This document shows, in pieces, positions 1 to 27,023 of a stretch of DNA of 57,821 nt; within the stretch, counting starts at the first letter, position 1, and the number at the start of each line of letters is the position of its first letter. The notes below the pieces were generated by a model. It had not been told where the DNA came from and made no database searches. It saw only the letters and a list, made by a program, of their open reading frames with translations. Position numbers and translations under genes: made by a program. Source of the DNA: Candidatus Fermentibacterota bacterium (lineage in GTDB: Bacteria > JAFGKV01). The DNA lies in contig JAFGKV010000193.1 in NCBI GenBank assembly GCA_016928395.1, positions 1 through 57,821 of the forward strand. The letters run 5' to 3'.

Positions 1-92
1 CAATCCCAGGACGAGACTGGTCTGGGCTGATGACGAAAACCCGTCACTCCCGTGCGAGAGAGGATAGGAAGGCTCCCGCCGGAGCCGGTTCT

Positions 93-512
93 GTGAGCCC
101 CCCTAACGAGACCGTCAGATTCGGGGTTTCTCTTCCCCTGAGCCTGCTTCAGGAACTTGACGGCAAGGTCATCGCCCAAGGCCGTGCCTCCCGTTCGGAG
201 TTCATCCGCGATCTCATCCGGGAGAGGCTCATCAGGGAGAAATGGGCGGGCGACGAGGACGTGGTCGGGGTGCTCACCATCGTGTACGACCACCATCAGC
301 GGGAGCTTCCGAGCCGGATCACGGAAGCCCAGCACAGCCATTACCTACATACAGTGTGCACGACTCATGTCCATTTGGATCACGATGCCTGCTTGGAGGT
401 CATCATTATCCACGGCAAACCCAGCGACATCGAAAGGCTGAGTACCCAGCTCGGCGGACTGCGCGGCGTCAAGTTCAGCAAGCTGACGAGAACCTCACGA
501 GTCGAGACATAG
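93..512 (+). CDS. nikR: Nickel-responsive transcriptional regulator NikR
   Basis: NikR represses or activates nickel uptake and nickel-enzyme genes in response to Ni(II). The protein has an N-terminal ribbon-helix-helix segment ([16 protein letters not shown], then [14 protein letters not shown]) followed by an ACT-like metal domain. That domain holds the [20 protein letters not shown] region, with the His/His/His/Cys pattern of the high-affinity nickel site. I chose GTG 93 because GGAG lies 8 bases upstream and it gives about 140 residues, the usual size. An ATG at 30 would add 21 low-complexity residues and has no ribosome site; the frame is also open to the window edge. A nickel regulator fits the [NiFe] hydrogenase operon 6 kb away, but I saw no NikR operator. 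Confidence 0.93.
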
Positions 513-6546: not shown

Positions 6547-7587
6547 ATGCAACGGACGCCGAGGCTGCTGCGAGAAGACCGCCTGAGCGACTTCCTCTGT
6601 GCCCTGCCTGGTGACCATTGCTTTGTGTCTGTGGAGACGAAATCCGGCACCGACTACGCCGAATACCCGACCTCCTCGACTGCTCTTCGGTTCCACCGTC
6701 CGACATCGCCCATCAAGCAGTTCTTCCTGCCCCCCAGAGAGCACATCGCCGCCTATTGGGGAGCCCAGGGCCTCCCGGAGATCGTCCCGTTCAGCTTGGT
6801 GGGGTTGCGCAACTGCGATCTGCTCAGCCTCCGCTACCTCGATCACGTATTCCTGGGCGGCATCTGCGAGGATCCGTTCTACAGGGCACGGCGGGCGGCG
6901 GCATTTCTCGTGTCTGTGGACTGCCTCCCCCCCCAGAAGACATGCTTCTGCACGGCCGTGGGCGGAAGGCCATACCCCGAAGGAGGGTTTGACATCAATC
7001 TGTCACCCGTTGACGACGGCTATGTGGCGGTGGCAGGGAGCGATGCGGGTGAGTCCCTTCTGGCGGGCCTGCCCTTCCTGGAGGATGCCGGCGACCACCT
7101 CCTCGGCCAGGTGGAGGCGGCACGGTCGTCGATGGTGGAGGCGTTGGCGCCAGCGGCCGGATCGGTGGACCCGGACAGAGCGGCCCGGACGCTGGCGGGA
7201 ACCGAGGTGAATCGGGCCTGGGAGCCGTGGGCGGGCAAATGCGTCGAGTGCGGCGCCTGTACCGCGGTATGCCCAACATGCCACTGCTACTACATCATTG
7301 ACACGCCGGGGATTGACCCCGAGATACAACCTGGCGCCTATGCCAAGGTTCGTACATGGGACAGCTGCCTTTTGGCGGAGTATGCTCGAATGGCAGGCGC
7401 CGGCGCAAAGCTTACTCCCCGGCCTCGGCTGCGAAGCAGGCTCTCGAACCGCGTGCTGCACAAGTATGTGTACTCGCCCGACCAGTATGGGATGTGCGGG
7501 TGTCTGGGGTGCGGGCGATGTGATGAAGCCTGCCTGGGCGGCATGAAGATACGCGACATGGTAGATGCGGTTGGTTCCCAGCGATGA
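6547..7587 (+). CDS. Sulfhydrogenase beta / AsrA-like 4Fe-4S electron-transfer subunit
   Basis: A 346-residue iron-sulfur protein that likely passes electrons between the flavin subunit encoded next and the hydrogenase. Two ferredoxin clusters are visible: C232/C235/C238/C242 (KCVECGACTAVCPTCHC) and C319/C322/C325/C329 (CLGCGRCDEAC). The upstream CLPPQKTCFCTAVGG segment is typical of sulfhydrogenase beta and anaerobic sulfite reductase A proteins. ATG 6547 is preceded by GGAGG at 6538-6542. TTG 6496 and ATG 6505 upstream lack ribosome sites, and the extra residues look non-coding. The stop overlaps the next start by 4 bases. Because hydrogenase genes follow and no siroheme reductase does, a sulfite-reductase role is unlikely. 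Confidence 0.88.
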   Translation: MQRTPRLLREDRLSDFLCALPGDHCFVSVETKSGTDYAEYPTSSTALRFHRPTSPIKQFFLPPREHIAAYWGAQGLPEIVPFSLVGLRNCDLLSLRYLDHVFLGGICEDPFYRARRAAAFLVSVDCLPPQKTCFCTAVGGRPYPEGGFDINLSPVDDGYVAVAGSDAGESLLAGLPFLEDAGDHLLGQVEAARSSMVEALAPAAGSVDPDRAARTLAGTEVNRAWEPWAGKCVECGACTAVCPTCHCYYIIDTPGIDPEIQPGAYAKVRTWDSCLLAEYARMAGAGAKLTPRPRLRSRLSNRVLHKYVYSPDQYGMCGCLGCGRCDEACLGGMKIRDMVDAVGSQR

Positions 7588-8405
7588 CCCTGCACGCGAA
7601 CCCGTACGAGCCCATCGCAGCCAGGCTGGCCGAAGTGGTTGATGAGACCCCGACCATCAAGACTTTCATTTTCACCCCCGATGAGCCCATCCCGTTCGTA
7701 TCGGGCCAGTTCGTCCAGCTCTGCCTCCCCGGTATCGGTGAGGCGCCCTTCACCCCATCGAGCTCGCCTCGTGAACCCAACAGGATCGAGATCACCATCC
7801 TCCGTACTGGAGCGGTTACCGAAGCGCTGCACCGGCTAGAGCCGGGGGCTGAGCTGGGGATCCGGGGGCCCCTGGGCAAGGGATACCCGGTGGATGAGCT
7901 GGAGGGAAAGGACATCCTTGTGGTCGGAGGAGGTGTCGGGCTCGCGCCCTTACGGGCGCTGCTCTACCACCTGTTCCACATCCGGGACCAGGTTGGCAAG
8001 ATCGAAATCAAGTACGGCGCCCGCTCGCCGGAGGAGCTGCTGTTCCGCCGTCAGTACGGCCAGTGGTCTGTCCTGCCCGGCGTTCGGTTCTCCGCGACGG
8101 TGGATGTACCCCATCCGCAGTGGACGGGGCGAACGGGCGTAGTCACGGTATTGCTTGATGACATCCAGCTGGATCTGAAGAGCTGCCTCGTGTTCTCGTG
8201 CGGCCCTGGTGTCATGTTCAAATTCGTGGTGCAGAAACTGCTGGAGCTCGGCGCCAGACCTGAGCAGATTTACCTTTCGATGAACCGACGGATGAGCTGT
8301 GGGATCGGGAAATGCGGGCGGTGCAACATAGGTCCGTACTATCTGTGCAAAGACGGGCCTGACATGAACTACGCGAAGATCATGGGATACGCGGATGTAT
8401 TCTAA
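7584..8405 (+). CDS. Sulfhydrogenase gamma / AsrB-like FAD-NAD(P)H oxidoreductase subunit
   Basis: A 273-residue ferredoxin-NADP reductase-fold protein, the predicted NAD(P)H entry point of the complex. The FAD domain (residues ~10-105) includes FVSGQFVQLCLPGIGEAPFTPSS. The nucleotide domain begins at ILVVGGGVGLAPLRALLYHL. Near the C-terminus C239/C244/C247/C255 (SCGIGKCGRCNIGPYYLC) match the [2Fe-2S] ligands of the dihydroorotate dehydrogenase PyrK/HydG/AsrB family. ATG 7584 overlaps the upstream stop by 4 bases. In sulfhydrogenases this pair links NAD(P)H to Fe-S clusters. Here it is fused by operon context to a membrane hydrogenase, not a soluble one. Confidence 0.9.
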   Translation: MTLHANPYEPIAARLAEVVDETPTIKTFIFTPDEPIPFVSGQFVQLCLPGIGEAPFTPSSSPREPNRIEITILRTGAVTEALHRLEPGAELGIRGPLGKGYPVDELEGKDILVVGGGVGLAPLRALLYHLFHIRDQVGKIEIKYGARSPEELLFRRQYGQWSVLPGVRFSATVDVPHPQWTGRTGVVTVLLDDIQLDLKSCLVFSCGPGVMFKFVVQKLLELGARPEQIYLSMNRRMSCGIGKCGRCNIGPYYLCKDGPDMNYAKIMGYADVF

Positions 8406-10047
8406 CGAAGACTCCCGGGAGAGAGGGTGGAGCCGATGCCTGTTCTGCTCGCTCCAGTGCGACCTGGGCATCCGAGACGCCGGAGGCGGCCGACTCGAAG
8501 CGGTATTCCCCCCGGAGGGAGGGCTCTGCAGCCGGGGACAATGTGTCGGAGAACTGGCCATGCGGGTCCGAAGGGGAACGGTTCGCGACGGCATGACGGG
8601 CGAAGAGCTGCCCCTTGCGCGCGGCATTGAAAGGGCGGCAGCTCATCTACGCGACAATCCGGGTCTCGATATTATCGTCGACGGCAATCACCGGGGAGAA
8701 GTGCTGGCGATGGTCGCGGCACTGGCGGCCCGCAACCCCGAACGGATCCGGGGATTCGTCGCTTTGCCCGGTGAAGACCTGCTGATGCTGGAGCATGCGT
8801 GGTCCAGTGGTGTCCGCTCGGGCGGGCTCGAGACCGTCGAACATGCCGACGGATTACTGGTGATCGGTGACCCCTTCTCCAGTCATCCCCGAAGCGCCAA
8901 ACCAATCCTTGATTTCAAGCGACGCAATCGCCGTTCCCCCGTGGTCGTAATCGACAGCTCCCCCCGGCGTACAGCCCTCTTTTCGACTCATCCCGTCATC
9001 ATTGACCCTGCCCTCGTCCCTGCCGCAGTCGCCAGCGTGATCCCGAAAGACGCGGCCGCGTTCCCGCGTCAGTCGCCCGGCGAGATCGACCCCACCGGAG
9101 GGCTGGATCGGGCCCTGTCTGCCCTCGGAAAATGCGCTCGCCTGGGCATCATCATCGCATCAGCTCCCGGGCGGGGCTGCCACTGGTCGGCTGCGGCGTA
9201 CTATGCTGGGCTGCTGACCCGCGTGCAGGGATCCGTGCTCGGCGTGTTGACGCAGTATGGAAATGCACGAAGTGCGTCTCGTTTTGTTGCGTCTGGTGCC
9301 CTGCTGCCCGTTGGTCTCATGACAGAGATGGCGCCGGAGGATCGATCGGTTGCGGTGGTCGGTGAACAAGACTGTCTTCTGAGCGCCACCGTGTGCAACC
9401 ATGTGGCCCGAGCACCGCACGTCGTCCATATCGGGCTGGGCCCGATGAACTTGACACCCGCGCTCGACTTCCCGGGTGTGGGCTTCTTCGAGGATGCGGG
9501 CTCGGTGCTTTCATCCGACGCTGATTGGGAGTTTGTTCCCCCGGCACTCGCGCCGCCCGACGGGGTGCCTTCAGCCGCGGGTATGCTCAAGTCAATCATG
9601 GAGGTCGCCGGTTTCAATGTGGATGAAGGCCCCTCCGCACTCCCGAAGCACCCCGAGTTTGTCGCGCCACAGGCGATGCCTCCTCCTGCACCGATCAAGG
9701 GAGCAGGCCCGCTCAGAGGCCTGCTCTCCGCAGACCCTGAGCAGTTTGTCGACGGCCAGCTCACGGGCCTCACCAGCCTTCTGGGCTCCCGTACTCCGAC
9801 CGTCATCGTGGCAACCGCTGACTGTACCCGATACGGCATCGAAGCCGATACGCCAGTGACGGTGTCGTCCGAGAACGGGCAATGCGCCGCAGTTGCGAAG
9901 TCGTGCATGCATCAACCGTCAGGAATCGCCGTGATCTCATGCACAAACAGCGACGCAAAGGGGCTCTTCCAGTGGGAACTGTGCGGCGGAATACCCGTTG
10001 CCAAACCGTCGCGGGTCTTCATCGAATCCTCTCGGAGTGCCCTCTGA
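8395..10047 (+). CDS. Degenerate molybdopterin oxidoreductase-like Fe-S subunit
   Basis: A 550-residue protein with the outline of a molybdopterin oxidoreductase (FdhA/FwdB/NuoG type). An N-terminal [4Fe-4S] motif C15-x2-C18-x3-C22-x22-C45 is followed by a Rossmann-like central part (GLLVIGDPFSSHPRSAKPIL). The C-terminal segment, RYGIEADTPVTVSSENGQ then PSGIAVISC, resembles the dinucleotide-binding domain. At about 550 residues it is short for FdhA, and I find no Cys or Sec in the usual Mo/W-ligand context. Like NuoG it may only carry an Fe-S cluster or scaffold. It overlaps the preceding gene by 11 bases. Formate dehydrogenase activity should not be assumed. Confidence 0.78.
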   Translation: MYSNEDSRERGWSRCLFCSLQCDLGIRDAGGGRLEAVFPPEGGLCSRGQCVGELAMRVRRGTVRDGMTGEELPLARGIERAAAHLRDNPGLDIIVDGNHRGEVLAMVAALAARNPERIRGFVALPGEDLLMLEHAWSSGVRSGGLETVEHADGLLVIGDPFSSHPRSAKPILDFKRRNRRSPVVVIDSSPRRTALFSTHPVIIDPALVPAAVASVIPKDAAAFPRQSPGEIDPTGGLDRALSALGKCARLGIIIASAPGRGCHWSAAAYYAGLLTRVQGSVLGVLTQYGNARSASRFVASGALLPVGLMTEMAPEDRSVAVVGEQDCLLSATVCNHVARAPHVVHIGLGPMNLTPALDFPGVGFFEDAGSVLSSDADWEFVPPALAPPDGVPSAAGMLKSIMEVAGFNVDEGPSALPKHPEFVAPQAMPPPAPIKGAGPLRGLLSADPEQFVDGQLTGLTSLLGSRTPTVIVATADCTRYGIEADTPVTVSSENGQCAAVAKSCMHQPSGIAVISCTNSDAKGLFQWELCGGIPVAKPSRVFIESSRSAL

Positions 10048-10541
10048 TGCCGGGCCTGAATGGGATAACCGCGCGCGTGGTGCTGGACATCGATCTCTGC
10101 ATCGACTGCAAGAGTTGCGCTGCGGCCTGCTATTTCCATCATAACAACATGCCCATTGTTGGCTTCGGCTCATCCCCCGGGGCGACGCTCCCCGTGATTT
10201 GCCGCCAATGCGAGTTCCCTGGATGTGTCGACGCGTGCCCCAATGAAGCCATGGCGCGGGACGAGAACGGGGTCGTCTCTCGATCGTTGTTTCGCTGTAC
10301 CGGCTGTCTGAGCTGTGTCATGGGATGCCCGTTCGGCGTCATCACCGAGCGGCTGGAGGGGGAGCACGTACCTAAGTGCGACCTCTGCGAGAATCGGGTG
10401 CTCGCCGGCCAGGAACCCTGGTGTGTCGCCAGTTGCTCCAGCGGCGCCCTGAAGTTCATGGACCCGGGCAAGGCTGAAGAGGCAGGCCTCGTGCTGCTGG
10501 GCGGGCGCACGGCGGGCTTCCGTCCATGGGGACGGAGGTAA
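10047..10541 (+). CDS. HycB/HydN-like polyferredoxin, four [4Fe-4S] clusters
   Basis: A 164-residue electron-transfer protein of the FdhB/HycB/DmsB family. It has four Cys groups: C18/C21/C24/C28 (CIDCKSCAAAC), CRQCEFPGCVDAC, CTGCLSCVMGC and the final CDLCENR...WCVASC. ATG 10047 overlaps the TGA of the molybdopterin-like gene by one base. In formate hydrogenlyases this subunit wires the molybdoenzyme to the hydrogenase. Here it should connect the degenerate molybdopterin-like subunit and the flavin module to the membrane complex. Confidence 0.93.
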   Translation: MPGLNGITARVVLDIDLCIDCKSCAAACYFHHNNMPIVGFGSSPGATLPVICRQCEFPGCVDACPNEAMARDENGVVSRSLFRCTGCLSCVMGCPFGVITERLEGEHVPKCDLCENRVLAGQEPWCVASCSSGALKFMDPGKAEEAGLVLLGGRTAGFRPWGRR

Positions 10542-10546
10542 GGGCG

Positions 10547-11500
10547 ATGAGGGAGATGGGCCTCGCGCTGCTGGTGTTGTTCGGAGCGACCCTCGCCACA
10601 GCAGTGCTTGGCCTGATCACCCGGTTCATTGACCGAAAGGTAACGGCCAGAGTGCAGTGGCGGGTGGGGCCGCCATGGTACCAGACTTTCGCGGATATCC
10701 TGAAGCTCTTGGGCAAGGAAACGCTGGTGCCGGGGCTGGCAAAGGGAACGCTCTTTCTGGCCTCTCCCGTGCTGGGCTTCGCCGCCACGTCGGTGGGGGC
10801 TACCATGCTCTGGAGTCATGCCCTTGGGCTGGGGTTCGCGTTCTTCGGCGACATCATCGTGCTGGTGTACGTCCTTACCATTCCCTCGTTGATGCTGGTG
10901 CTTGGGCCGGCCAGCAGCGGCAGCCCGTACGGTGCGGTGGGGGCCAGCCGTGAGATGAAGCTCCTACTGGGCTACGAACTGCCCTTCGTCCTGGCACTGG
11001 CGGTGGCGCTCATTCACACCGGAGGCAGCCTGCGCATAGAGGATATCGTGGCTGGCCAGGCCCGCCATGGCGCGGTCATCGGAAGCGTCAGCGGCGTGGT
11101 GGCAGCGCTGGTGTCGCTGGTGTGCATCCAGGCCAAGATGGGCCTTGTGCCGTTCGACATGGCCGAGGCTGAGACGGAACTCATGGGCGGGATTCTGGTC
11201 GAGTACTCCGGGCCGCCCCTGGCCGTGATCCTGCTGACCAGGGCCATGCTGTATGCCGCGCTTCCAATGCTGCTGGTCACCGTGTTTCTCGGCGGCATCG
11301 ACTTGCGCGGCCTGGGTATCGTCTGGGCACTCCTCAAATACCTGGCCATCGTGGTGCTGATGGTTCTGATGCGCAACACCAATCCTCGTCTTCGGATCGA
11401 TCAGGCCGTGCGCTTCTTCTGGGGCGTGCTGGCGCCGATCGCCCTGGCTGCGGTGGCGTTGGCCGCCTATGGCAGGGCCCGGGGCATCCCGTGGCTATAG
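10547..11500 (+). CDS. Group 4 hydrogenase membrane subunit, NuoH/HycD/MbhM-like
   Basis: A 317-residue protein with about eight membrane helices, homologous to complex I NuoH. The characteristic conserved parts are RFIDRKVTARVQWRVGPPWYQ at the first loop, YGAVGASREMKLLLGYELPF mid-protein and LVPFDMAEAETELMGGILVEYSG. The acidic loop ETELMGG sits at the quinone-site/hydrogenase interface in related complexes. ATG 10547 follows GGAGGTAAGGGCG; the ATG at 10526 lies inside the previous gene. It forms the membrane foot joining the peripheral hydrogenase to the antiporter subunits. Confidence 0.95.
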   Translation: MREMGLALLVLFGATLATAVLGLITRFIDRKVTARVQWRVGPPWYQTFADILKLLGKETLVPGLAKGTLFLASPVLGFAATSVGATMLWSHALGLGFAFFGDIIVLVYVLTIPSLMLVLGPASSGSPYGAVGASREMKLLLGYELPFVLALAVALIHTGGSLRIEDIVAGQARHGAVIGSVSGVVAALVSLVCIQAKMGLVPFDMAEAETELMGGILVEYSGPPLAVILLTRAMLYAALPMLLVTVFLGGIDLRGLGIVWALLKYLAIVVLMVLMRNTNPRLRIDQAVRFFWGVLAPIALAAVALAAYGRARGIPWL

Positions 11501-11508
11501 GAGCGCTG

Positions 11509-11940
11509 ATGAGCTGGAAGATCTGGGCCTTGAAGAAGTCGATCTGGGTCTACCATGTGAATGTGGGCGCGTGCAATAACTGCGATATTGAGATCCTTGA
11601 ACTCCTTACTCCCCGGTATGACATCGAACGCTTCGGCATGGTGCTGGTGGGCTCTCCGAGGCACGCCGATGCGCTGGTAGTGACCGGGATTTGCACCCAC
11701 CAAGCGGTTCCCCGGCTCCAGGAGGTCTATCGGCAAACCGCGAAGCCGTGCGTCGTGTTCTGCATCGGAACATGCGCCAATGACCGTGGCATTTTCAAGG
11801 CCGGGTATGGCTCACCTACGCCTGCGGACGAGGCGATTCGCGCTGTGGATCCCCGCGCCATCATCGCGTATGTACCGGGCTGCCCACCCAAACCCGAAGC
11901 CATGATTGCCGGGGTCGTCAAGGCCCTGGCCGCTCTCTAG
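11509..11940 (+). CDS. [NiFe] hydrogenase small subunit, NuoB/EchC/MbhJ-like
   Basis: A 143-residue NuoB-family subunit carrying the proximal [4Fe-4S] cluster: GACNNCDIE, GTCANDRG and PGCPPKP supply the four Cys. This cluster passes electrons to and from the NiFe site in the large subunit. ATG 11509 lies 9 bases after the NuoH-like stop, with TAGGAGCGC upstream; GTG 11491 is an alternative overlapping start. Confidence 0.94.
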   Translation: MSWKIWALKKSIWVYHVNVGACNNCDIEILELLTPRYDIERFGMVLVGSPRHADALVVTGICTHQAVPRLQEVYRQTAKPCVVFCIGTCANDRGIFKAGYGSPTPADEAIRAVDPRAIIAYVPGCPPKPEAMIAGVVKALAAL

Positions 11941-11949
11941 GAGGTATCG

Positions 11950-12381
11950 GTGGGCCACGTAGCGGAATCGATAAAGTCTCACGTCGGTAATGAACTGCTT
12001 TGGTTCAGCATGCCCAGCGATACCCGGGCATGGGCAGTGGTTGCTCCTGAGGCCATCCGCCGTACCATCGCATTCCTGCGCGAGAGTGGAGGCCGGCTGG
12101 CAACGATGACAGGCGTCGAGGTGCGGGATGGCATAGAGGTCAACTATCATATCTGTTTCGATCATGACGGCCTCGTCATCACTGTGCGCGCCCTGGCGTC
12201 ATGGCCTGAACCGTCGCTGGAGTCGGTGGCGCAAGACTTCCCGGGGGCCTTGTGGATAGAGCGCGAAATCCACGATGTCCTGGGGGTCTCGTTTGTCGGC
12301 CATCCCGATATGCGGCGCCTGGTGCTGCCCGACGATTGGCCCGAGGGAAACTATCCTCTCCGGAAAGGCTTCCAGGCATGA
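11950..12381 (+). CDS. Hydrogenase subunit, NuoC (30 kDa)-like
   Basis: A 143-residue NuoC/EchD/MbhK-type subunit. The family signature is WIEREIHDVLGVSFVGHPDMRRLVLPDDWPEG near the C-terminus. It is a structural partner of the large subunit in the peripheral arm. GTG 11950 follows CTAGGAGGTATCG, and the gene overlaps the large-subunit gene by 4 bases. Confidence 0.92.
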   Translation: MGHVAESIKSHVGNELLWFSMPSDTRAWAVVAPEAIRRTIAFLRESGGRLATMTGVEVRDGIEVNYHICFDHDGLVITVRALASWPEPSLESVAQDFPGALWIEREIHDVLGVSFVGHPDMRRLVLPDDWPEGNYPLRKGFQA

Positions 12382-13571
12382 AGCGCACGCTTGTTCCCAT
12401 CGGCCCCTACCATCCTCTTCAGGAAGAGGCGGAGTTCTTTCAGCTCTATGTGGAGGGCGAAACCGTGGTGGACATGGATGTCCGCATCTCCTACAACCAC
12501 CGGGGCATCGAGGAGCTATCGTCACGGAAGACGTTTGACCAGGTGCCCTACCTGGTCGAACGAGTATGCGGTATCTGCTCGGCCAGCCATCCCATGGCGT
12601 ATATCCAAGCCGTGGAAAGCATCGCAGGGGTGCAGGTCCCCGACCGGGCACTCTACCTCCGCACCATTGTGCTGGAGCTGGAACGGCTGCACTCGCATCT
12701 TCTATGGATGGGGTTGGCCGGCCACTTCATCGGGTACAACACAGTGTGGATGTGGGTGTGGCGATATCGGGAGCCGGTGATGGACGCCCTGGAACTGATG
12801 ACAGGCAGCCGGGTGAACTATGCCAATGCCAAGATCGGCGGCGTCCGCCGAGACATCCCACCTGAGATGTACCCTGAGATCAGGAAGGCGGCGGACGCGG
12901 TAATCGGTCCCACCGAGCTGGTCATCAAGGCCGTGCGCGATGATCCGGTCATGCACGCGCGGTTGAAGGGTGTCGGCGTGCTCAGGAAAGCGGATGCCAA
13001 GGCATGGTGCGTCACGGGGCCGACAGCCCGGGGTTCGGGAGTGGATATCGATGTCCGCAAAGACGAGCCATACGCCGCCTATGACCGGGTGGACTTCGAT
13101 GAGGTCGTGTGGGACAACGGTGACGTCTATGCCAAGTTCATGGTACGCTGCTACGAATGCCTGGAGGCCTCGAAGATCATCATTCAGTGCCTGGATCAAA
13201 TCGAGCCGGGCCCTGTCGATGCGATGGTTCGGGAAATCCCTCCGGGCGACGGCTGCGGACACGTCGAGGCTCCGCGGGGAGAGACCTTCCACTTCGTCAG
13301 ATCCGACGGATCGGCCCATCCTGTTCGCCACAAGGTGCGTGCCCCCTCCTATGTGAATATTCCGAGCTTTAAGGCAAGCTGCATCGGGCAGGAGATCGCC
13401 GACGTCGCGCTCATTCTGGCGTCGGTAGACCCCTGCTACTCATGCACTGAACGCGTGGCCGTGGCCAAAGATGTCTCCACGGGCAGGGTCGTGTGGTCCC
13501 ACAGTGATTTGGTCCGGCTAAGCCGACAAAAGACCGCCAGGCTCAGCGGGCGCGGGAACCGAACGGCATGA
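12378..13571 (+). CDS. Group 4 [NiFe] hydrogenase large (catalytic) subunit
   Basis: A 397-residue NuoD/HycE/MbhL-family subunit with an intact NiFe site: L1 is ERVCGICSASHP (C64, C67, H71) and L2 is DPCYSCTER (C353, C356). Complex I NuoD lacks these Cys, so this is a true hydrogenase subunit. About 41 residues follow the last Cys, consistent with a C-terminal extension removed by the protease encoded at 20132. ATG 12378 overlaps the NuoC-like stop. The peripheral location in the cytoplasm implies proton reduction or H2 oxidation linked to the membrane antiporters. Confidence 0.96.
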   Translation: MKRTLVPIGPYHPLQEEAEFFQLYVEGETVVDMDVRISYNHRGIEELSSRKTFDQVPYLVERVCGICSASHPMAYIQAVESIAGVQVPDRALYLRTIVLELERLHSHLLWMGLAGHFIGYNTVWMWVWRYREPVMDALELMTGSRVNYANAKIGGVRRDIPPEMYPEIRKAADAVIGPTELVIKAVRDDPVMHARLKGVGVLRKADAKAWCVTGPTARGSGVDIDVRKDEPYAAYDRVDFDEVVWDNGDVYAKFMVRCYECLEASKIIIQCLDQIEPGPVDAMVREIPPGDGCGHVEAPRGETFHFVRSDGSAHPVRHKVRAPSYVNIPSFKASCIGQEIADVALILASVDPCYSCTERVAVAKDVSTGRVVWSHSDLVRLSRQKTARLSGRGNRTA

Positions 13572-15460: not shown

Positions 15461-15478
15461 CAGCATGAGGAGGTAGGG

Positions 15479-16048
15479 GTGTCAGATCTCACTCCCGTGG
15501 TTCTGTACGCGCTCCTCGGGTTCATGATTCTGGGCTCCATTGTGGCCGTCGAGATCGCAGATCTGCTCAGCGCGGTCATCGCAATGGGCGCCGTGGGCTT
15601 TGGGCTCTCTCTGGTCTATCTCTTTCTTGGTGCTCCCGATCTTGCATTGACGCAGGTGGTGGTGGAAATCCTCATTCTGGTCTTTCTTATCCGCCTGGTG
15701 GTGCAACGCAAAGACACGACGGAGCAACATCCTCCCGGCGCGCTACTGGTCGGTGGCATCATGCTCGTGATGGGCGTTGTCCTTACGATCATGGTCATGG
15801 CCTTCAGTGACATGCACCCTTTCGGCTCTCCGCTGTTCTCCCGGACCGCGGCCGCACCCACCATCGCGTTCGATTACCTTCGCGAGGCTGTGGCCCAAAC
15901 CGGTGCCACCAACATAGTCACCGCGATTTTGTTGGACTTCCGGGCCTATGACACCTTGGGGGAAGCCACCGTGATCTTCGCCAGCATCGTGGGCGCCTAC
16001 GCTGTGCTGCGGCGCGTCGGCCGGATTTCCAAGGGAGGCACGGAATGA
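15479..16048 (+). CDS. MbhD/MbhE-like fused Mrp antiporter subunit
   Basis: A 189-residue membrane protein. Its first ~80 residues match the DUF4040/MbhD segment (EIADLLSAVIAMGAVGFGLSLVYLFLGAPDLALTQVVVE). Its last part matches MbhE (TNIVTAILLDFRAYDTLGEATVIFASIVGAYAVLR). In MrpA these two lie at the C-terminus of a long NuoL-like protein, and in archaeal Mbh they are two separate genes. Here they are joined to each other but split from the NuoL-like protein. GTG 15479 follows GAGGAGGTAGGG. Confidence 0.9.
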   Translation: MSDLTPVVLYALLGFMILGSIVAVEIADLLSAVIAMGAVGFGLSLVYLFLGAPDLALTQVVVEILILVFLIRLVVQRKDTTEQHPPGALLVGGIMLVMGVVLTIMVMAFSDMHPFGSPLFSRTAAAPTIAFDYLREAVAQTGATNIVTAILLDFRAYDTLGEATVIFASIVGAYAVLRRVGRISKGGTE

Positions 16049-16530
16049 CTCCTCATTCGCCGCGCGGCGGCTCTGGCATGACGATTATCGTGAAGAGCAC
16101 GACGAGAATCGTTACGGCCTTCATCATGCTCTTCGGCACCACGATCGTGCTCTACGGGCATGTCACGCCGGGAGGCGGATTTGCCGGAGGAGTAATCATC
16201 GCGGCAGCCTTCGCGCTTATCGTGCTAGCCTTCGGCAAGACACTGGCCGGCAGGTTTGTGACCGGCACCACGGCCTCGGTGTGGGATTCCGCCGCCGCGA
16301 CCGCCTTTCTTTTCGTCGGCGTGCTGGGGTATCTGGGCGGGTGCTTCTTCTGGAACTTCCTTCGTCCTCCCCAGAGTGGCCGCTTTACTCTCTTCAAGCT
16401 CTACTCGGCCGGGTCAATTCTGCTCTCGAATACCGCGATCGGCATGAAGGTCGGCATGGGCCTGCTCGGAGTGTTCCTTGCTTTGTCCGTATTCAGGCCC
16501 AGAAGGGAAGAAGGTGAAGGACATGAGTAG
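16045..16530 (+). CDS. mnhB: Mrp/Mnh-type antiporter subunit B
   Basis: A 161-residue MnhB/MbhF homologue with four membrane helices. The conserved segment is LYGHVTPGGGFAGGVIIAAAFALIVLAFG. ATG 16045 overlaps the previous stop by 4 bases; an internal ATG at 16078 would remove 11 polar residues. It is part of the Na+/H+ translocating Mrp module. Confidence 0.93.
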   Translation: MTPHSPRGGSGMTIIVKSTTRIVTAFIMLFGTTIVLYGHVTPGGGFAGGVIIAAAFALIVLAFGKTLAGRFVTGTTASVWDSAAATAFLFVGVLGYLGGCFFWNFLRPPQSGRFTLFKLYSAGSILLSNTAIGMKVGMGLLGVFLALSVFRPRREEGEGHE

Positions 16531-16903
16531 CGGGGCCATACCCTTCGCGCTTTCCATGGTTGTGTTGCTCATCGGCCTGTACGCGATCATCGCCAAGGCG
16601 AATGTGGTGAAGATCATCATCGGTATCCTGATCACTGACTACGCGGTCAATCTGTTCCTCGTGCTTCTGGGGTATCGCCACGGAGGCAGAGCGCCCATCG
16701 TCACCAAGGCCGATCTTGACACAAGCGGTGGGGTGAGCATGGGGTTTGTCAACACCTCGGTGGATCCGGTTCCCCAGGCGCTGATCCTGACCAGTATCGT
16801 CATCGGGCTTGCCGTGGCCGCGATGATGGTCGCGCTGGCGCTCCGCCTCCACGACAAGTACGGCACCTTCGACATCACGCGCATTCGCAGGTTGAAGGGG
16901 TAG
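16523..16903 (+). CDS. mnhC: Mrp/Mnh-type antiporter subunit C (NuoK-like)
   Basis: A 126-residue NuoK/MnhC homologue with three helices (ALSMVVLLIGLYAIIAK, VKIIIGILITDYAVNLFLVLLG, PQALILTSIVIGLAVAAMMVALALRL). The loop DPVPQALILTSIVIG is a hallmark of the family. ATG 16523 overlaps mnhB by 8 bases with GAAGGTGAAGG upstream. Confidence 0.93.
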   Translation: MSSGAIPFALSMVVLLIGLYAIIAKANVVKIIIGILITDYAVNLFLVLLGYRHGGRAPIVTKADLDTSGGVSMGFVNTSVDPVPQALILTSIVIGLAVAAMMVALALRLHDKYGTFDITRIRRLKG

Positions 16904-16906
16904 GCC

Positions 16907-18445
16907 ATGACGAACATCCTCCCGCTGGTGGTGGCTCTTCCGCTGGGTGCGGGGTTCCTCTCGCCGCTGCTGGGCAAGTCGCGCCGCGGTGAATCGATGG
17001 CTGCGTTGCTGGCTCTGGGAATCGGTTTCGCCAACCTCGCCATCAGCGTCGCGCTGTTCACCACCACAGAGCCGCTGGTCTACTGGATTGGGTTCTGGAA
17101 TGCACCCGTGGGCATCAGCATGGCGGTGGATGGGTTGACCAGACTTCTCCTCCTCACGACCAGTCTCGTTGCCCTGGCGGCGCTGGTATTCAGTATTGCC
17201 TACATGCGTCGCTTCACGGCCACTGGGCTGTACTACTCGCTGCTCATGCTGATGGTGGCGGGCATGAACGGCGTCATCGTGACGGGCGACCTGTTCAACC
17301 TGTATGTCTTCCTTGAAGTCGCGTCCATCTCTTCCTACGGGCTGGTGGCCTTCGGCACGGAGCACGAGGAACTGGAGGCCAGCTTCAAGTATCTCATCCT
17401 CGGATCAATCGGCTCCTTGTTCATCCTGCTGGGCATAGGCATCCTCTACAACCTGACAGGCCAGCTCAACATGGCCCTGGTGGCAGACTCCCTGGCCGGC
17501 AGAGGCGCCAACAGGGCCATGACCCTGGCTGCGGCGTTCTTCCTCATGGGTTTCGGCCTCAAGGCCGCCTTGGTGCCCTTCCACGCATGGCTGCCTGATG
17601 CCCATCCATCGGCTCCGGCGCCCATCTCGGCAATGCTCTCAGGCGTACTCATAAAGGCGAGCGGTGTCTATGCCCTGGCCCGGATCGTGTTCAATGTCAT
17701 GGGGCCTTCCGCCGCCCATGCGGATGTGCTCACTGCTCTGGGCGCCCTCTCCATGGTTGTCGGCGTCTTCCTGGCGGTCGGGCAGTGGGATTTCAAGCGA
17801 TTGCTTGGCTATCACAGTATCTCCCAGATGGGGTACATAGTGCTCGCCATAGGAGTTGCCGCCCAGGTCATGTCGCCCCGGGGCAGCGGCGATGAGGCCC
17901 TGGCGGGACTTCTGCTGTTCGGCGGTCTCTTCCATCTGTTCAATCATGCGGCATTCAAGAGCCTGTTGTTCCTCTCCTCAGGGTCATTGGAGCAGCAGGC
18001 CGGAACCCGCATGCTCAAAGAGTTGGGCGGCATGCGTCGGCGAATGCCCGTCACCGCATTCTGTTGCCGGATCGGGGCCCTGAGCATCGCGGGGGTCCCT
18101 CCATTCAACGGGTTCTTCTCGAAGCTGGTTATCGTAGTCGCACTGGCTCTGGCCGGCAAGTGGCTGCTGGCCGCCCTGGCGGTGTTCGTCGCCATGATGA
18201 CCTTGGTTTCCTTCTTGAAGGTCCAGCGCACGGTGCTGGAAGGCGAAACCCCTGAGAGGCTCGCCGGGGTGCGGGAGGCTCCATACCCCATGCAATCGGG
18301 TATGCTGATCCTTGCGACGGTGTGCCTGTTGGGCGGGCCTTTGGTGGTGTGGCTGCGCGGGTGGTTGCTGGACCCGGCGGCCGCCAGCCTTCTGACCCGG
18401 GCAGCCGGCTATGCGGCCCTCTTCAGTCCCCGAGGTGGCCCGTGA
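16907..18445 (+). CDS. mnhD: Mrp/Mnh-type antiporter subunit D (NuoM/N-like)
   Basis: A 512-residue polytopic antiporter subunit. Recognisable parts are LFNLYVFLEVASISSYGLVAFG with the key Glu, FGLKAALVPFHAWLPDAHPSAPAPISAMLSG, DFKRLLGYHSISQMGYIVLAIG and FNHAAFKSLLFLSSGS. It is the second large ion-pumping subunit of the operon, beside the NuoL-like protein at 13568. It starts 3 bases after mnhC. Confidence 0.94.
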   Translation: MTNILPLVVALPLGAGFLSPLLGKSRRGESMAALLALGIGFANLAISVALFTTTEPLVYWIGFWNAPVGISMAVDGLTRLLLLTTSLVALAALVFSIAYMRRFTATGLYYSLLMLMVAGMNGVIVTGDLFNLYVFLEVASISSYGLVAFGTEHEELEASFKYLILGSIGSLFILLGIGILYNLTGQLNMALVADSLAGRGANRAMTLAAAFFLMGFGLKAALVPFHAWLPDAHPSAPAPISAMLSGVLIKASGVYALARIVFNVMGPSAAHADVLTALGALSMVVGVFLAVGQWDFKRLLGYHSISQMGYIVLAIGVAAQVMSPRGSGDEALAGLLLFGGLFHLFNHAAFKSLLFLSSGSLEQQAGTRMLKELGGMRRRMPVTAFCCRIGALSIAGVPPFNGFFSKLVIVVALALAGKWLLAALAVFVAMMTLVSFLKVQRTVLEGETPERLAGVREAPYPMQSGMLILATVCLLGGPLVVWLRGWLLDPAAASLLTRAAGYAALFSPRGGP

Positions 18446-18927
18446 AGCAGCTTCTCTCCTGCGTGCTCACCTTGATGCTTTGGCTGTTGCTCACATGGTC
18501 GCTCGCCCCTTCGGATATCGCGGCGGGCGTATTCTTCAGCATCGTCATCGCCGTCGTGCTGAGCGATATCTATCCTGACAATCCCCAGGCGGCGTTCGAA
18601 CCGAGACGGTGGTTCTGGGCAGCGGTCTATGTCCCCTATTTCTTTTACTACATGGTACGGGCGAACCTCGATGTAGCCTACCGGGTCGTGCATCCCGACA
18701 TGCCGATACGGCCGGGGATCGTGAAAGTCCGCACGACCTTGAAGGGTGACCTTGGGCGTACCGCCCTGGCCAACTCTATCACGCTGACGCCGGGAACCCT
18801 GAGCGTCGACATCATCGACGACTGTCTCTACGTGCACTGGATCAATGTCTCAACTTTGGACGCCGAGGAGCAGACGATGCTCATCGTCGAGAAGTTCGAG
18901 CGTATTTTGAAGAAGATCTTCCGATGA
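18442..18927 (+). CDS. mnhE: Mrp/Mnh-type antiporter subunit E
   Basis: A 161-residue MnhE/MbhA homologue with two or three N-terminal helices, then a cytoplasmic domain with the family pattern GIVKVRTTLKGDLGRTALANSITLTPGTLSVDI. GTG 18442 overlaps the mnhD stop by 4 bases. Confidence 0.93.
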   Translation: MKQLLSCVLTLMLWLLLTWSLAPSDIAAGVFFSIVIAVVLSDIYPDNPQAAFEPRRWFWAAVYVPYFFYYMVRANLDVAYRVVHPDMPIRPGIVKVRTTLKGDLGRTALANSITLTPGTLSVDIIDDCLYVHWINVSTLDAEEQTMLIVEKFERILKKIFR

Positions 18928-19193
18928 TACCCGGGTTCATCTCTTTCGGCGTTGCTGTGCTTCTGGCGAGCGCCTTCCTGTGCCTTTTCCGCATCTCTCG
19001 AGGGCCTACACCGCCCGATCGAACCGTGGCCATCGACATTCTCGGCACTCTGGTGGTAGGCTTCTGCTGCGTGCTCTGCCTCGCCACCGGTCTTGACTTC
19101 TTCATGAACATCGCCATCGCCTGGGCGCTGATCAGTTTCATCGGCACCATTGCCCTTGCGAAGCATTTGGAGGGCCGTCACTTTGACGATTGA
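18924..19193 (+). CDS. mnhF: Mrp/Mnh-type antiporter subunit F
   Basis: An 89-residue three-helix protein with the MnhF signature FRISRGPTPPDRTVAIDILG. It overlaps mnhE by 4 bases and mnhG by about 11 bases. Confidence 0.92.
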   Translation: MIPGFISFGVAVLLASAFLCLFRISRGPTPPDRTVAIDILGTLVVGFCCVLCLATGLDFFMNIAIAWALISFIGTIALAKHLEGRHFDD

Positions 19194-19530
19194 CCCCATT
19201 CCCATGGTCTTCATCACGGTCGGCCTGCTGTTCGACCTGCTGGGATGCATCGGCCTCGTCCGGCTCCCGGATGTGTACAATCGTGCCCAGGCGGCAACCA
19301 AGTGCGTCACCCTGGGAACGTGCCTTGTCCTCATCGGCGTCGCGGCCCAGTTCGGCGTCAGCGCCTTAGGAATCAAGGCGCTCTTGTGTATGATCTTCGT
19401 GCTGTTCACCTCACCGGTGGGTGCCCATGCCATCGTGCGTGGAGCCTACCGCAGCGGTGTGAAGATGTGGGGGGGCAGCGTCGTGGATGCATATGCGGAT
19501 GTCGCCGCCTCAGAGCAAGAGAAGAGCTAG
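19183..19530 (+). CDS. mnhG: Mrp/Mnh-type antiporter subunit G
   Basis: A 115-residue MnhG/MbhC homologue: GLLFDLLGCIGLVRLPDVYNRAQAATKCVTLG and the C-terminal FTSPVGAHAIVRGAYRSG are diagnostic. TTG 19183 is preferred because GGAGGG lies 8 bases upstream; TTG 19150 is a possible longer start. Confidence 0.9.
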   Translation: MTIDPIPMVFITVGLLFDLLGCIGLVRLPDVYNRAQAATKCVTLGTCLVLIGVAAQFGVSALGIKALLCMIFVLFTSPVGAHAIVRGAYRSGVKMWGGSVVDAYADVAASEQEKS

Positions 19531-19532
19531 CC

Positions 19533-20141
19533 GTGCGCGCCCCCAAGCTCAGGGAACTGAAAGAAGCTATCCGCTCCCTCTTCTCCCGACCCGTGACCGT
19601 GCGTTTCCCTGCGGGGGCCTACGAAGCACCGGCAGGCTACCGGGGCACGCCGCGGTATGATGAGGCGACCTGCATCGGCTGTGGTGCCTGTGCCCAGGTC
19701 TGCCCGGCCAAGGCCATCGAGATGATTGACGACCTGGCACAGTCACCTCCGGTGCGGCGTTTCACCATTCACTACGACGTGTGCATCTTCTGCGGGCATT
19801 GCGAGCTGAACTGTACCACCACGACCGGGATCCACAACACCACCGAGTATGACATGACGACCTTTGACCGGGCCAGTCTGGTCTCCTCTGTTGAAAAGGA
19901 ACTGGTCCTGTGCGAAGGATGCGGCGCAGTCATCGCCCCCCGGGAACACATCCTGTGGAGCGCTGAAAAGCTGGGAGCAAAGCAGTTCGCCAACCCGACC
20001 CTCGCGCTTTCGTCCGCTGGCGCGCTGGGGCTCGTTGAGCCAGCCTCGGCCAGCGTACATCCCGGCCTGAGGCCGGACAGCGTGCGAGTACTCTGTGCCC
20101 GCTGTCGCCGCACTACCGTCGTCGGAGAGCTGTGGGGGTAG
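19533..20141 (+). CDS. Hydrogenase ferredoxin-like subunit, NuoI/MbhN-like
   Basis: A 202-residue NuoI-type electron-transfer subunit with two [4Fe-4S] motifs, C47/C50/C53/C57 (CIGCGACAQVCPAK) and C84/C87/C90/C94 (CIFCGHCELNC). The C-terminal region adds two CxxC pairs (C127/C130, C188/C191). These could bind zinc or iron and also occur at the ends of some HycF/HyfH subunits. GTG 19533 lies 2 bases after the mnhG stop. It links the HycB-like and flavin subunits to the NuoB-like subunit. Confidence 0.92.
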   Translation: MRAPKLRELKEAIRSLFSRPVTVRFPAGAYEAPAGYRGTPRYDEATCIGCGACAQVCPAKAIEMIDDLAQSPPVRRFTIHYDVCIFCGHCELNCTTTTGIHNTTEYDMTTFDRASLVSSVEKELVLCEGCGAVIAPREHILWSAEKLGAKQFANPTLALSSAGALGLVEPASASVHPGLRPDSVRVLCARCRRTTVVGELWG

Positions 20142-20623
20142 ACTGGGAGAGCCTTCTCGCCCCGCTTCTTCCCGGGCGTGTGACGTTGGTCGCCATGGGA
20201 GACCGCTCGGCGGGCGACGATGCCGCCGCTTTGATGCTTGTCGACCTCTTAGCAGGCAAGGCCTCTCTCCCGCTGCTTGACTGCGGATCGTATCCTCAGA
20301 ACTTCCTCTCCATCATTGCCCGGACCTGCCCCCACGTGGTCATGCTAGTAGACGCCGCTGAGCTTGGTCTGCTCCCAGGCCAGGTCCGGGTCTTGGATCA
20401 CGCGGCCCTGGCCGACTGGGGTGGCAGCCATGGCTATCCCATGGGACTCCTCATGGAACAGATAGAGGCTCTCAGCCGAGCCCGCGTGTTCCTTCTAGGC
20501 ATTCAGATCGGAGACTTGACGCGGGGACAGAGCTGCCATCCTGCCGTGGAGGAAACAATCAGAGGCCTGGCGGAGTTCCTCATGAGCCGGTATCCCGCCC
20601 GGACGAACGAGAGGACCCCATAG
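20132..20623 (+). CDS. hycI: Hydrogenase maturation endopeptidase (HycI family)
   Basis: A 163-residue nickel-dependent protease that trims the large-subunit C-terminus after Ni-Fe insertion. It shows GDRSAGDDAAALMLVDLL (metal-ligand acidic residue), LLDCGSYPQNFLS, and VDAAELGLLPGQVRVLD followed by SHGYPMGLLMEQI with the conserved His. GTG 20132 overlaps the ferredoxin-like gene by 10 bases. Its presence matches the C-terminal extension on the catalytic subunit. No hypABCDEF genes are in this window. Confidence 0.9.
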   Translation: MGVDWESLLAPLLPGRVTLVAMGDRSAGDDAAALMLVDLLAGKASLPLLDCGSYPQNFLSIIARTCPHVVMLVDAAELGLLPGQVRVLDHAALADWGGSHGYPMGLLMEQIEALSRARVFLLGIQIGDLTRGQSCHPAVEETIRGLAEFLMSRYPARTNERTP

Positions 20624-21984
20624 TGTCGCCGCACCGTGATCTGACCATCACCGAAGAGGAGCTGCTCCACCGGCTGGCGTGGTCCGTACGCTTCCGGTGG
20701 TATGCCAGCATCGCCACCAATGTGGCCTTGCTGGTTGCCTGGTACCGGTTCGGGGTTCGATTCCCCCTTCCCCAGACCGCGCTGGTGGCATTGGCAGTGC
20801 CCTTCTACAACGCCATCTTCGCACTCATCGTCGCCAATCTCTCGGCTCGCGAAGCCATTACGGCACTCCGTATCAAGATCGTCGCCAATGCCCAGGTCGC
20901 CTGCGACATCGTGGCCGTAGCCACCCTCGTCCATTTCACCGGCGGCATCGAAAACCCGTTCATGGTTTTCATGCTGTTCCCCATAGTATACTCGCTTCCG
21001 CTGCTCAGAAGAAAGACCGTGCTCTACCACACGACGCTGGCGGCCTTTCTGGTCAATGCTGTGTATTGGGGAGAGTGTTTTGAGATGCTTCCCCACGTGC
21101 ACCTTCCCACTGTGGTCTCTCCCGTACTCTACATGAGCAGGCTGTATGTCTTCCAGACGTCATTCATGATGACGGTGACGCTCTATCTGCTGCTCTTCGT
21201 GGGGGGATCCGTCGCCAGCACCCTCCGCCGACGGGAACGAGAGCTCCAGGCGACGTACAATGAACTCAGAGATCTTCATGAAGCTCGGGCCTTCTATGTG
21301 CGAAAGGTGAGCCACGAGCTGCGAGCCCCGCTGGGCGCCATCCGGAGCCTGCTCCAGGTCATGCTACAGGGCCTCATGGGGCCGCTGAGCACCCAGCAAG
21401 AGGAGACTCTGGCCCGGGTTGACCGGCGGGCGGAAGGGTTGCTTGATCTCGTCACCGACCTGCTGACCTTCGCCCATTTGGAGGTCCTGCGGCGCCCCCA
21501 GCAGCGGAGCCCCGTGGCCATGCATGATTTGGTGGCCAGCGTCGCGCGGCTCTTTGCCCCGCAAGCCGAGGAACGAGGGGTGTCGTTTCAGATCTCGACC
21601 GTGCCCGCAACGGTGGATGGAAACAGAGAGGATCTCCAGCAGCTCGTCACCAATCTGGTGAGCAATGCCCTACGCTATACTCCCCGAGGGGGCCACGTCT
21701 GGGTTACCGGTGTGATCCACGGCGACCGGCTGGCTCTCTCGGTTCGCGATACCGGTATCGGTATACCGAAGGACAAACTCCCCAATGTGTTCGACGAGTT
21801 CTTCCGCGCCTCCAATGCCCGCCAACTGGTCCCGGAGGGCAGCGGTATGGGCATGGCCATCTCCAGGCGGATTGCCGAGATGCATGGAGGGCAGATCGCC
21901 GTGGTCAGCGAGGAGGGCAAGGGTGCCTCGTTCACCGTCGAGCTCCCCCTGGCCAGATCCTCCGACGGCACGGCCATACTCTAA
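20623..21984 (+). CDS. RegB-like membrane sensor histidine kinase
   Basis: A 453-residue kinase. The N-terminal half has about six hydrophobic segments and contains GGIENPF (residues 107-113), the GGxxNPF motif that binds quinone in RegB/PrrB, plus a RegB-like RFRWYA near residue 25. A coiled linker (TLRRRERELQATYNELRDLHE) leads to the H-box VSHELRAPLGAI (H231). The ATPase parts are LVTNLVSNALRYTP, DTGIGIP, FDEFFR and GSGMGMAI. GTG 20623 overlaps the protease stop by one base, so it is co-translated with the hydrogenase operon. No response regulator is nearby. The H-box lacks the RegB redox Cys context, so only the quinone half is supported. Confidence 0.9.
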   Translation: MSPHRDLTITEEELLHRLAWSVRFRWYASIATNVALLVAWYRFGVRFPLPQTALVALAVPFYNAIFALIVANLSAREAITALRIKIVANAQVACDIVAVATLVHFTGGIENPFMVFMLFPIVYSLPLLRRKTVLYHTTLAAFLVNAVYWGECFEMLPHVHLPTVVSPVLYMSRLYVFQTSFMMTVTLYLLLFVGGSVASTLRRRERELQATYNELRDLHEARAFYVRKVSHELRAPLGAIRSLLQVMLQGLMGPLSTQQEETLARVDRRAEGLLDLVTDLLTFAHLEVLRRPQQRSPVAMHDLVASVARLFAPQAEERGVSFQISTVPATVDGNREDLQQLVTNLVSNALRYTPRGGHVWVTGVIHGDRLALSVRDTGIGIPKDKLPNVFDEFFRASNARQLVPEGSGMGMAISRRIAEMHGGQIAVVSEEGKGASFTVELPLARSSDGTAIL

Positions 21985-26254: not shown

Positions 26255-26732
26255 GGTGGTCCTCTCGTTGGTGCCCGCGAGGCAGGGGCTGCATGCGGAA
26301 AAACGCACGACCCACGACCCGAATCCCGTCGTACCCTGAACCTGCGCACCCCACCCGCAGCACGGGCAATGGTGACTCGCTGTCCTCCACGCAGGAGTGA
26401 ATGAGGCACGTCCCTTTGCACTCCTGCCTGATCCAAAGCGGTGACACAAGGTAGCAGCGAGACCGCCGCAGGTCCATGATGACAGACCACCATTGCCCGC
26501 CACTCTCGCTCTGGGAGATACCGGAACCATTGCGACCCCGCGTCGAGAGGCTATATTGACTTTCTCATCCCTTGTTCTCCAGGGAGAGCTGTCGTTGGCC
26601 GAGTGTCTTCCGGAAGGTACGGCTTGGAGGTCCAAGCAGCCATGGTTCGGAGGCGCCGGGCAGAGCCGGGCATTGGGCCCGGATGATTGAGGTGCCGCAG
26701 TCGCGGCGTAGCACAGGAGCGTGGAACTGCCC
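26255..26732. other. Divergent intergenic region
   Basis: 478 bases between the divergent giant gene and the RRM gene, so promoters for both should be here. TTGACT at 26556-26561 lacks a good -10 partner. I see no gene or RNA. Confidence 0.5.
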
Positions 26733-27023
26733 ATGGGTAACAAGTTGTTTGTCGGTGGCCTGAGCTGGAATACGACTCAGGATAGCCTCCGCGAGGCCTT
26801 TGAGGTCTTCGGTGAGGTCCAGGAAGCGAAAATTGTCACCGACCGAGAGAGCGGACGATCCCGAGGATTTGGCTTCGTCACGTTTCGAGATGAGTCATCC
26901 GCCAGTGCCGCCCAGTCAAAGATGGACGGCGAGCAGCTTGACGGGCGATCCATCCGTGTCAGCGAGGCCAATGAGCGAGAAGGCGGCCGCTACCGCGGCG
27001 GATCGGACGGCTCACGGTATTAG
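26733..27023 (+). CDS. RRM-domain RNA-binding protein
   Basis: A 96-residue single RNA recognition motif protein of the cyanobacterial Rbp/glycine-rich type. RNP2 is KLFVGGLSW (residues 3-11) and RNP1 is RGFGFVTF. The C-terminus is a short Arg/Gly/Ser tail (EREGGRYRGGSDGSRY). It likely binds single-stranded RNA and may act in post-transcriptional or cold/stress regulation. ATG 26733 is chosen; GTG 26721 would add four residues but lies too close to AGGAG. A strong hairpin follows 11 bases after the stop. Confidence 0.95.
   Translation: MGNKLFVGGLSWNTTQDSLREAFEVFGEVQEAKIVTDRESGRSRGFGFVTFRDESSASAAQSKMDGEQLDGRSIRVSEANEREGGRYRGGSDGSRY

Follow-up and report, generated by a model that had tools for sequence, protein, structure and literature searches.

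The membrane-bound hydrogenase (Mbh) of Pyrococcus furiosus takes electrons from ferredoxin and, to our knowledge, has no AsrA/AsrB pair, FdhF-fold subunit or HycB. A different composition was reported in 2019 for Saganbacteria RX5A, where a hydrogenase and Mrp subunits accompany an unclassifiable molybdopterin oxidoreductase, cooF, asrA and asrB (Matheus Carnevali et al. 2019, PMC6349859); the accessible part of that paper places the RX5A hydrogenase nearest to those of Zixibacteria and Omnitrophica and gives its function by analogy to Mbh only. Here we describe an operon from a Candidatus Fermentibacterota bacterium (contig JAFGKV010000193.1, assembly GCA_016928395.1; the window is the whole analysed stretch of 57,821 nucleotides). 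All six components named in the accessible part of PMC6349859 are present in the window cluster, and, as far as the genes listed there allow a comparison, the gene sets are alike with no difference known. The arrangement is a further case of the kind reported in 2019; new here are an FdhF-fold subunit that is optional and probably dead, a single AsrB clade, and the breadth across phyla. We think it probable that the operon encodes a membrane-bound, reversible, NAD(P)H-linked group 4 [NiFe] hydrogenase coupled to ion flow.

Positions 6547-21984 of the plus strand form a single tight operon of 19 genes in the order AsrA, AsrB, molybdopterin-fold protein, HycB, NuoH, NuoB, NuoC, NuoD, NuoL/MrpA, MbhD-E, MrpB-G, NuoI, HycI and histidine kinase. 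Almost all gene ends overlap or abut. For example, the stop codon TGA of the molybdopterin-fold gene (10045-10047) meets the ATG of hycB at 10047, and the mnhD stop (18443-18445) follows the GTG start of mnhE at 18442. The genes, with the matches that identify them, are as follows.

6547..7587, plus strand: AsrA, sulfhydrogenase beta-like, Fer4_22 [4Fe-4S] sites (NCBIfam ShyB E 3e-38, HydB E 2e-36; PDB 9nez_B E 3e-34)
7584..8405, plus strand: AsrB, sulfhydrogenase gamma-like, FAD + NAD(P) + [2Fe-2S], proposed NAD(P)H entry (Pfam FAD_binding_6, NAD_binding_1 and DHODB_Fe-S_bind above cut-off; PDB 9nez_C E 4e-53)
8395..10047, plus strand: FdhF/NuoG-fold protein, one [4Fe-4S] site, probably catalytically dead (family profile against F420-dependent formate dehydrogenase E 1e-45; AlphaFold2 model; Foldseek formate dehydrogenase H (FDH-H) 1e-19, NuoG 2e-19)
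10047..10541, plus strand: HycB/CooF-like, cysteines for four [4Fe-4S] clusters (Fer4_11 E 6e-18; Cys pattern in sequence)
10526..11500, plus strand: NuoH/MbhM-like membrane anchor (NADHdh E 2e-64)
11491..11940, plus strand: NuoB-like hydrogenase small subunit, proximal cluster (Oxidored_q6 E 3e-23)
11950..12381, plus strand: NuoC-like subunit (Complex1_30kDa E 2e-26)
12378..13571, plus strand: group 4 [NiFe] large subunit, NuoD-like, L1/L2 intact, C-terminal tail past L2 (Complex1_49kDa E 7e-70; NiFeSe_Hases E 3e-14)
13568..15460, plus strand: NuoL/MrpA-like antiporter subunit, 630 aa (Proton_antipo_M E 5e-56; channel Glu/Lys aligned with HyfB/D/F)
15479..16048, plus strand: fused MbhD and MbhE, C-terminal part of MrpA (MbhD E 8e-16, MbhE E 1e-12)
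16045..16530, plus strand: MnhB/MrpB (MnhB E 4e-20)
16523..16903, plus strand: MnhC/MrpC, NuoK-like (Oxidored_q2 E 5e-23)
16907..18445, plus strand: MnhD/MrpD antiporter subunit (Proton_antipo_M E 9e-61)
18442..18927, plus strand: MnhE/MrpE (MNHE E 2e-43)
18924..19193, plus strand: MrpF (MrpF_PhaF E 1e-16)
19186..19530, plus strand: MnhG/MrpG, start codon uncertain (PhaG_MnhG_YufB E 7e-26)
19533..20141, plus strand: NuoI/HycF-like 2[4Fe-4S] protein (PRK12387 formate hydrogenlyase Fe-S subunit E 2e-26)
20132..20623, plus strand: HycI-type [NiFe] maturation protease (TIGR00142 E 2e-15; TIGR00072 above cut-off)
20623..21984, plus strand: membrane histidine kinase, PilS-like membrane domain (HisKA and HATPase_c above cut-off)

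A first-pass annotation, made from the sequence alone, had described a single plus-strand operon built of these modules, and both the family matches and the overlapping or abutting genes bear it out, including the maturation protease (TIGR00142/TIGR00072) and the sensor kinase (HisKA and HATPase_c) at the end. Its complete MnhB-G set is there as well, with MbhD/E, MnhB, MnhC (Oxidored_q2), MnhD, MnhE, MrpF and MnhG all passing Pfam cut-offs; the set is effectively A-G, as the 630-aa NuoL/MrpA-like subunit and the fused MbhD-E supply MrpA. The NuoI/HycF-like ferredoxin at 19533-20141 is an operon member which that annotation did not name. On the other hand, the combination, which it had taken to be new, is already listed for RX5A in the accessible part of PMC6349859 and was found in many phyla. 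No promoter-like site was found, and terminator-like matches were weak.

A scan with the large subunit found at least 54 loci with a related hydrogenase, spanning Planctomycetota, WOR-3/Stahlbacteria, Eisenbacteria, Kiritimatiellota, Lentisphaerota, Fibrobacterota, Elusimicrobiota, Calescamantes, Nitrospirota, Spirochaetes and others. The operon is conserved: among the matches listed, the gene order compared in related genomes was the same, and of the 39 loci with enough upstream contig, 38 carry asrB before hycB and the hydrogenase core. Repeated in dozens of contigs across many phyla, the arrangement is not a chance one. L026 has an insertion of about 3.8 kb between asrB and hycB. Mrp genes follow the core in most loci and are partly or wholly out of view or unmatched in L020, L058, L034, L037 and L049. 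The nearest named relative among the matches listed was Candidatus Eisenbacteria isolate Prado127 (L007; large subunit 89%). A genome of the same genus (G001) also gave an 89% large-subunit match, with the operon split across two contigs, while the best match in the other genome of the family, from a different genus, was only 35%; the operon is therefore patchy even within the family.

The sulfhydrogenase beta/gamma-type pair proposed in the first-pass annotation was recovered by ShyB/HydB, AsrB/HydG and 9nez matches. AsrB matched PRK08345/AsrB/HydG with E from 5e-62 to 9e-53; its structural match 9nez_C is the gamma subunit of P. furiosus sulfhydrogenase 1, and AsrA resembles sulfhydrogenase beta. 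The [2Fe-2S] cysteine pattern of AsrB is conserved in 39 of 40 rows. In the AsrB tree, whose outgroup comprises three rows only, the copies adjoining group 4 hydrogenases form one clade (100/99), and the group 3b copies of L038, L055 and P. furiosus fall outside it. L038 and L055 carry group 3b and group 4 AsrAB side by side, and the clade split holds there too. The separation of this one clade from group 3b HydG speaks for one ancient, shared recruitment of AsrB. In both loci (regions L038:2031 and L055:1917) the group 4 operon is immediately preceded by asrA, asrB and hydrogenase genes of group 3b type. We also observed that asrB of the same-genus genome (L005:3224-3847) is broken by a frameshift, possibly an assembly error.

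Taken alone, the molybdopterin-fold protein gave no Pfam or NCBIfam match above cut-off (Molydop_binding E 0.0045). The profile of its 25-member family matched formate dehydrogenase (FDH), Nap and NuoG in PDB, with a best E of 1e-45. The AlphaFold2 single-chain model (pLDDT 79.6, pTM 0.82; weaker at residues 1-60 and 411-470) spans the whole molybdenum bis-pyranopterin guanine dinucleotide (Mo-bisPGD) fold, with FDH-H, Nap and NuoG tying (VIA Z 21-23, root-mean-square deviation 4-5 Å over 440-510 residues). The profile and the predicted structure secured the molybdopterin-like member of the annotated molybdopterin-like and HycB-like pair; as an ordinary module it did not hold up, this subunit being optional and probably catalytically dead.

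The formate-type active site is lost. Four cysteines for one [4Fe-4S] cluster are conserved (the third is Asp in one member), with no conserved Cys beyond these ligands in the family, and the only invariant residues are three Cys ligands, R57, G158, P165, E366 and G369. The column of FDH-H Sec140 (U140), where the alignment may be shifted by a few residues, holds E, G, A or Q and never C, U, S or D in the 25 members. The His141 column holds D, P, E or S, the Lys44 column holds Arg (Leu once), and the Arg333 segment is missing in 25 of 25. Mean identity to the window was 27% for this subunit, the lowest of the subunits compared, against 67% for NuoD and 63% for AsrB at the same loci. The subunit is probably no longer catalytic and may serve as a relay or scaffold. 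It is also dispensable, because asrB directly precedes hycB, with no molybdopterin-fold subunit, in 13 loci; its presence needs two changes on the large-subunit tree. Judged by eye, the open reading frames (ORFs) of the loci lacking it showed, apart from a NuoF/NuoG-like pair in L052, no conspicuous large and unassigned molybdopterin protein that could be a live Mo enzyme. A lost active site would account for the molybdopterin subunit of the 2019 authors having defied classification; the accessible part of PMC6349859 does not report that subunit as dead or optional.

The core has the nickel-ligand CxxC motifs L1 and L2, a complex I-like small subunit and a membrane anchor, as in group 4 [NiFe] hydrogenases. 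L1 of the window large subunit reads CGICSASH and L2 DPCYSCTER, both intact as the first-pass annotation had said, and their cysteines are kept in every family row that reaches these motifs. The C-terminal tail runs past the end point of processed MbhL (6cfw), and such a tail past L2 fits the linked HycI protease. HypD is encoded elsewhere in the genome. Judging by the L1/L2 cysteines, the tail, HycI, HypD and NikR, the hydrogenase appears to be a real nickel enzyme. The NikR nickel-responsive regulator lies at 30-512 (plus strand), about 6 kb upstream of the operon. A loss of L2 in half of the relatives was ruled out, as the residues there are DPCYCCTER with both nickel cysteines present. This form, with an extra Cys within the CxxC, occurs in most large subunits of L025-L060; the L2 motif as quoted in PMC7886697 permits A, G, S or T at that position. 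Deep placement in the large-subunit tree relative to HycE, MbhL and Nqo4 was unreliable, as long branches meet, and no subgroup was drawn. Mrp-linked bacterial hydrogenases of Omnitrophota have been typed as 4g, and only such papers suggest 4g for this operon.

Each characterized relative shares a part of this design. P. furiosus Mbh (6cfw, group 4d) has the common core, the Mrp-derived membrane arm and intact L1/L2; the window operon has two large antiporter subunits, and its AsrAB and HycB depart from an entry by ferredoxin only. Formate hydrogenlyase (FHL)/Hyf of Escherichia coli has in common the HycB and FdhF-fold pair, the HycF-like ferredoxin and HycI, but its FdhF is a live Sec-FDH, and it has neither the Mrp B-G set nor the flavoprotein pair. 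The operon has no competent FDH subunit of FHL or Mfh type (Sec/Cys-His, Arg333). The beta/gamma NAD(P)H module of P. furiosus sulfhydrogenase 1 (9nez, group 3b) is homologous to AsrA/AsrB; that enzyme, however, has a soluble group 3b core, whereas the window large subunit is of the complex I 49-kDa type, and its HydG is outside the AsrB clade of these operons. With respiratory complex I the operon shares NAD(P)H input, a dead molybdopterin-fold subunit (NuoG), the NuoBCDI-H core and antiporter subunits. Complex I differs in its NADH module NuoEF, its quinone acceptor and a NuoD without nickel ligands; both CxxC motifs are present in the window NuoD, and the input pair is AsrA/AsrB-like.

In the proposed mechanism, NAD(P)H would reduce FAD and [2Fe-2S] in AsrB, and electrons would pass to the [4Fe-4S] clusters of AsrA, to the one [4Fe-4S] cluster of the probably dead FdhF/NuoG-fold subunit and to the four HycB clusters. 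From HycB they would continue through NuoI and NuoB to the NiFe site in NuoD, where 2H+ and H2 would be interconverted, while NuoH, the two antiporter-like subunits and MrpB-G would couple electron transfer to H+ or Na+ flow. In vivo this would give H2 production from NAD(P)H, pulled by low H2, driven by ion influx, or both, or alternatively H2-driven NAD(P)+ reduction at high H2. We infer from the sequence the assembly into a single complex, the order of transfer, the activity, the coupling and the direction.

Energetics bear on the direction. The potential of NADH is about -0.28 to -0.32 V, and that of H+/H2 is -0.41 V at 1 atm and about -0.3 V at 10 Pa. By the standard redox potentials, NADH to H2 leaves energy for pumping only when H2 is extremely low, and outward ion pumping on this reaction is unlikely; ion influx could drive NADH to H2, or, at high H2, the reverse reaction with NAD+ could power pumping. 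Of the earlier proposal, the hybrid of an NAD(P)H-type module and an Mrp-linked group 4 hydrogenase, probably reversible, stands, and the outward ion-pumping NAD(P)H:H+ direction is thermodynamically less likely.

The genome context was drawn from family searches in a metagenome-assembled genome (343 contigs, 94% complete). No second 49-kDa homologue, as expected of complex I, was found elsewhere in this assembly, and no haem-copper oxidase (COX1) was found by family search. Rnf and Nqr-like genes, four POR loci, a Vhu/Mvh-like NiFe hydrogenase, a separate Sec-FDH with a NuoEF-like partner and a NuoEF/GltD/NuoG-like cluster are present. The host resembles an anaerobe that has to balance pools of ferredoxin and NADH. 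At G000:C157:3165-12134 (L076), a FeFe-hydrogenase-like protein (432 aa) and a 1279-aa Fer2/GltD-like/NuoG-like fusion lie beside a NuoF-like protein; this cluster is perhaps a bifurcating or transhydrogenase complex.

Several points weigh against the NAD(P)H-linked, ion-coupled hydrogenase. The sole exception to the gene order, L037 (WOR-3), has hycB and the hydrogenase core with no AsrAB match in the 10 kb view. AsrAB, though in the same operon, could work by itself as a soluble NAD(P)H:acceptor enzyme, and the single-chain model carries no information on docking. Some Mo enzymes, e.g., arsenite oxidase, have no protein ligand to Mo, so the loss of Cys/Sec alone is no proof of inactivity. 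The missing complex I could be a gap in the 343-contig assembly. Sequence does not decide between NADH and NADPH; the AsrB segment YGARSPEELLF, which can be aligned with YGARSLREMFY of the NADH-using NqrF, is no more than a weak hint at NADH. Finally, the real electron donor may be ferredoxin, with HycB or NuoI as its point of entry by analogy to Mbh. This is the main rival: a ferredoxin-driven Mbh with AsrAB as output arm would make H2, reduce NAD(P)+ and pump ions. It draws on the HycB and NuoI ferredoxin-like subunits, on the four POR genes that supply reduced ferredoxin, on L037, on a favourable energetic direction and on HydDB, which lists the function of uncharacterized group 4g as undetermined, putatively ferredoxin-coupled (PMC5037454). 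Still, Rnf in the same genome already performs Fd:NAD+ oxidoreduction with ion export, and characterized Mbh needs no flavoprotein pair; we regard this rival as unlikely, if a serious contender.

A formate- or other substrate-linked hydrogenase of FHL/Mfh type, with a live Mo/W enzyme as entry, would account for the FdhF fold with its HycB partner, and the 2019 profile models, in the accessible part of PMC6349859, pointed to FDH. The sequence largely refutes it: the active-site columns lack Cys, Sec and His, the R333 segment is missing, divergence is fast, 13 loci whose operon is otherwise the same lack the subunit, and the separate Sec-FDH has its own NuoEF-like partner, leaving this reading barely credible. 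That AsrAB and the FdhF-fold protein are merely co-transcribed with an Mbh and act elsewhere, e.g., in sulfur or sulfite reduction, fits the use of AsrA/AsrB by sulfite reductase in other bacteria and the lack of a whole-complex structure. This is improbable given the 38 of 39 informative loci in many phyla; nor did the window operon show a catalytic subunit of AsrC type.

If the NAD(P)H-linked hydrogenase is real, these bacteria form or consume H2 at the membrane in direct, energy-coupled exchange with NAD(P)H, a connection that HydDB leaves open for 4g. A dead, optional FdhF-fold subunit would bear on how complex I gained NuoG, and it matters in a hydrogenase because the FHL structure paper PMC9474812 treats FdhF/HycB as relatives of NDUFS1/NuoG; the same paper considers that the last hydrogenase among the ancestors of complex I may have been a complex of FHL type. 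More tentatively, and with rather less than even confidence, we suggest a widespread, convergent complex I-like class, in which a sulfhydrogenase-type flavoprotein replaces NuoEF, an FDH-type subunit has turned into a NuoG-like relay or scaffold, protons are the acceptor and ion flow drives H2 formation from NAD(P)H. Such a class would offer a present-day counterpart of the step from an FHL-type ancestor to complex I. Operons with and without the FdhF-fold subunit permit a direct test of its purpose. In the open literature (most subscription journals being outside the search) no paper was found that states the dead or optional FdhF-fold subunit, the single AsrB clade or the breadth across phyla; the accessible parts of a 2024 seep-phylum paper and of the Bathyarchaeia Hfo paper describe other group 4 systems and do not mention AsrAB.

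Directly past the operon, a 1577-aa ORF without a Pfam match lies on the opposite strand (22010-26743, minus strand). No response regulator gene adjoins the operon-closing histidine kinase in the window. A histidine kinase also follows hycI in L008, L025 and L057.

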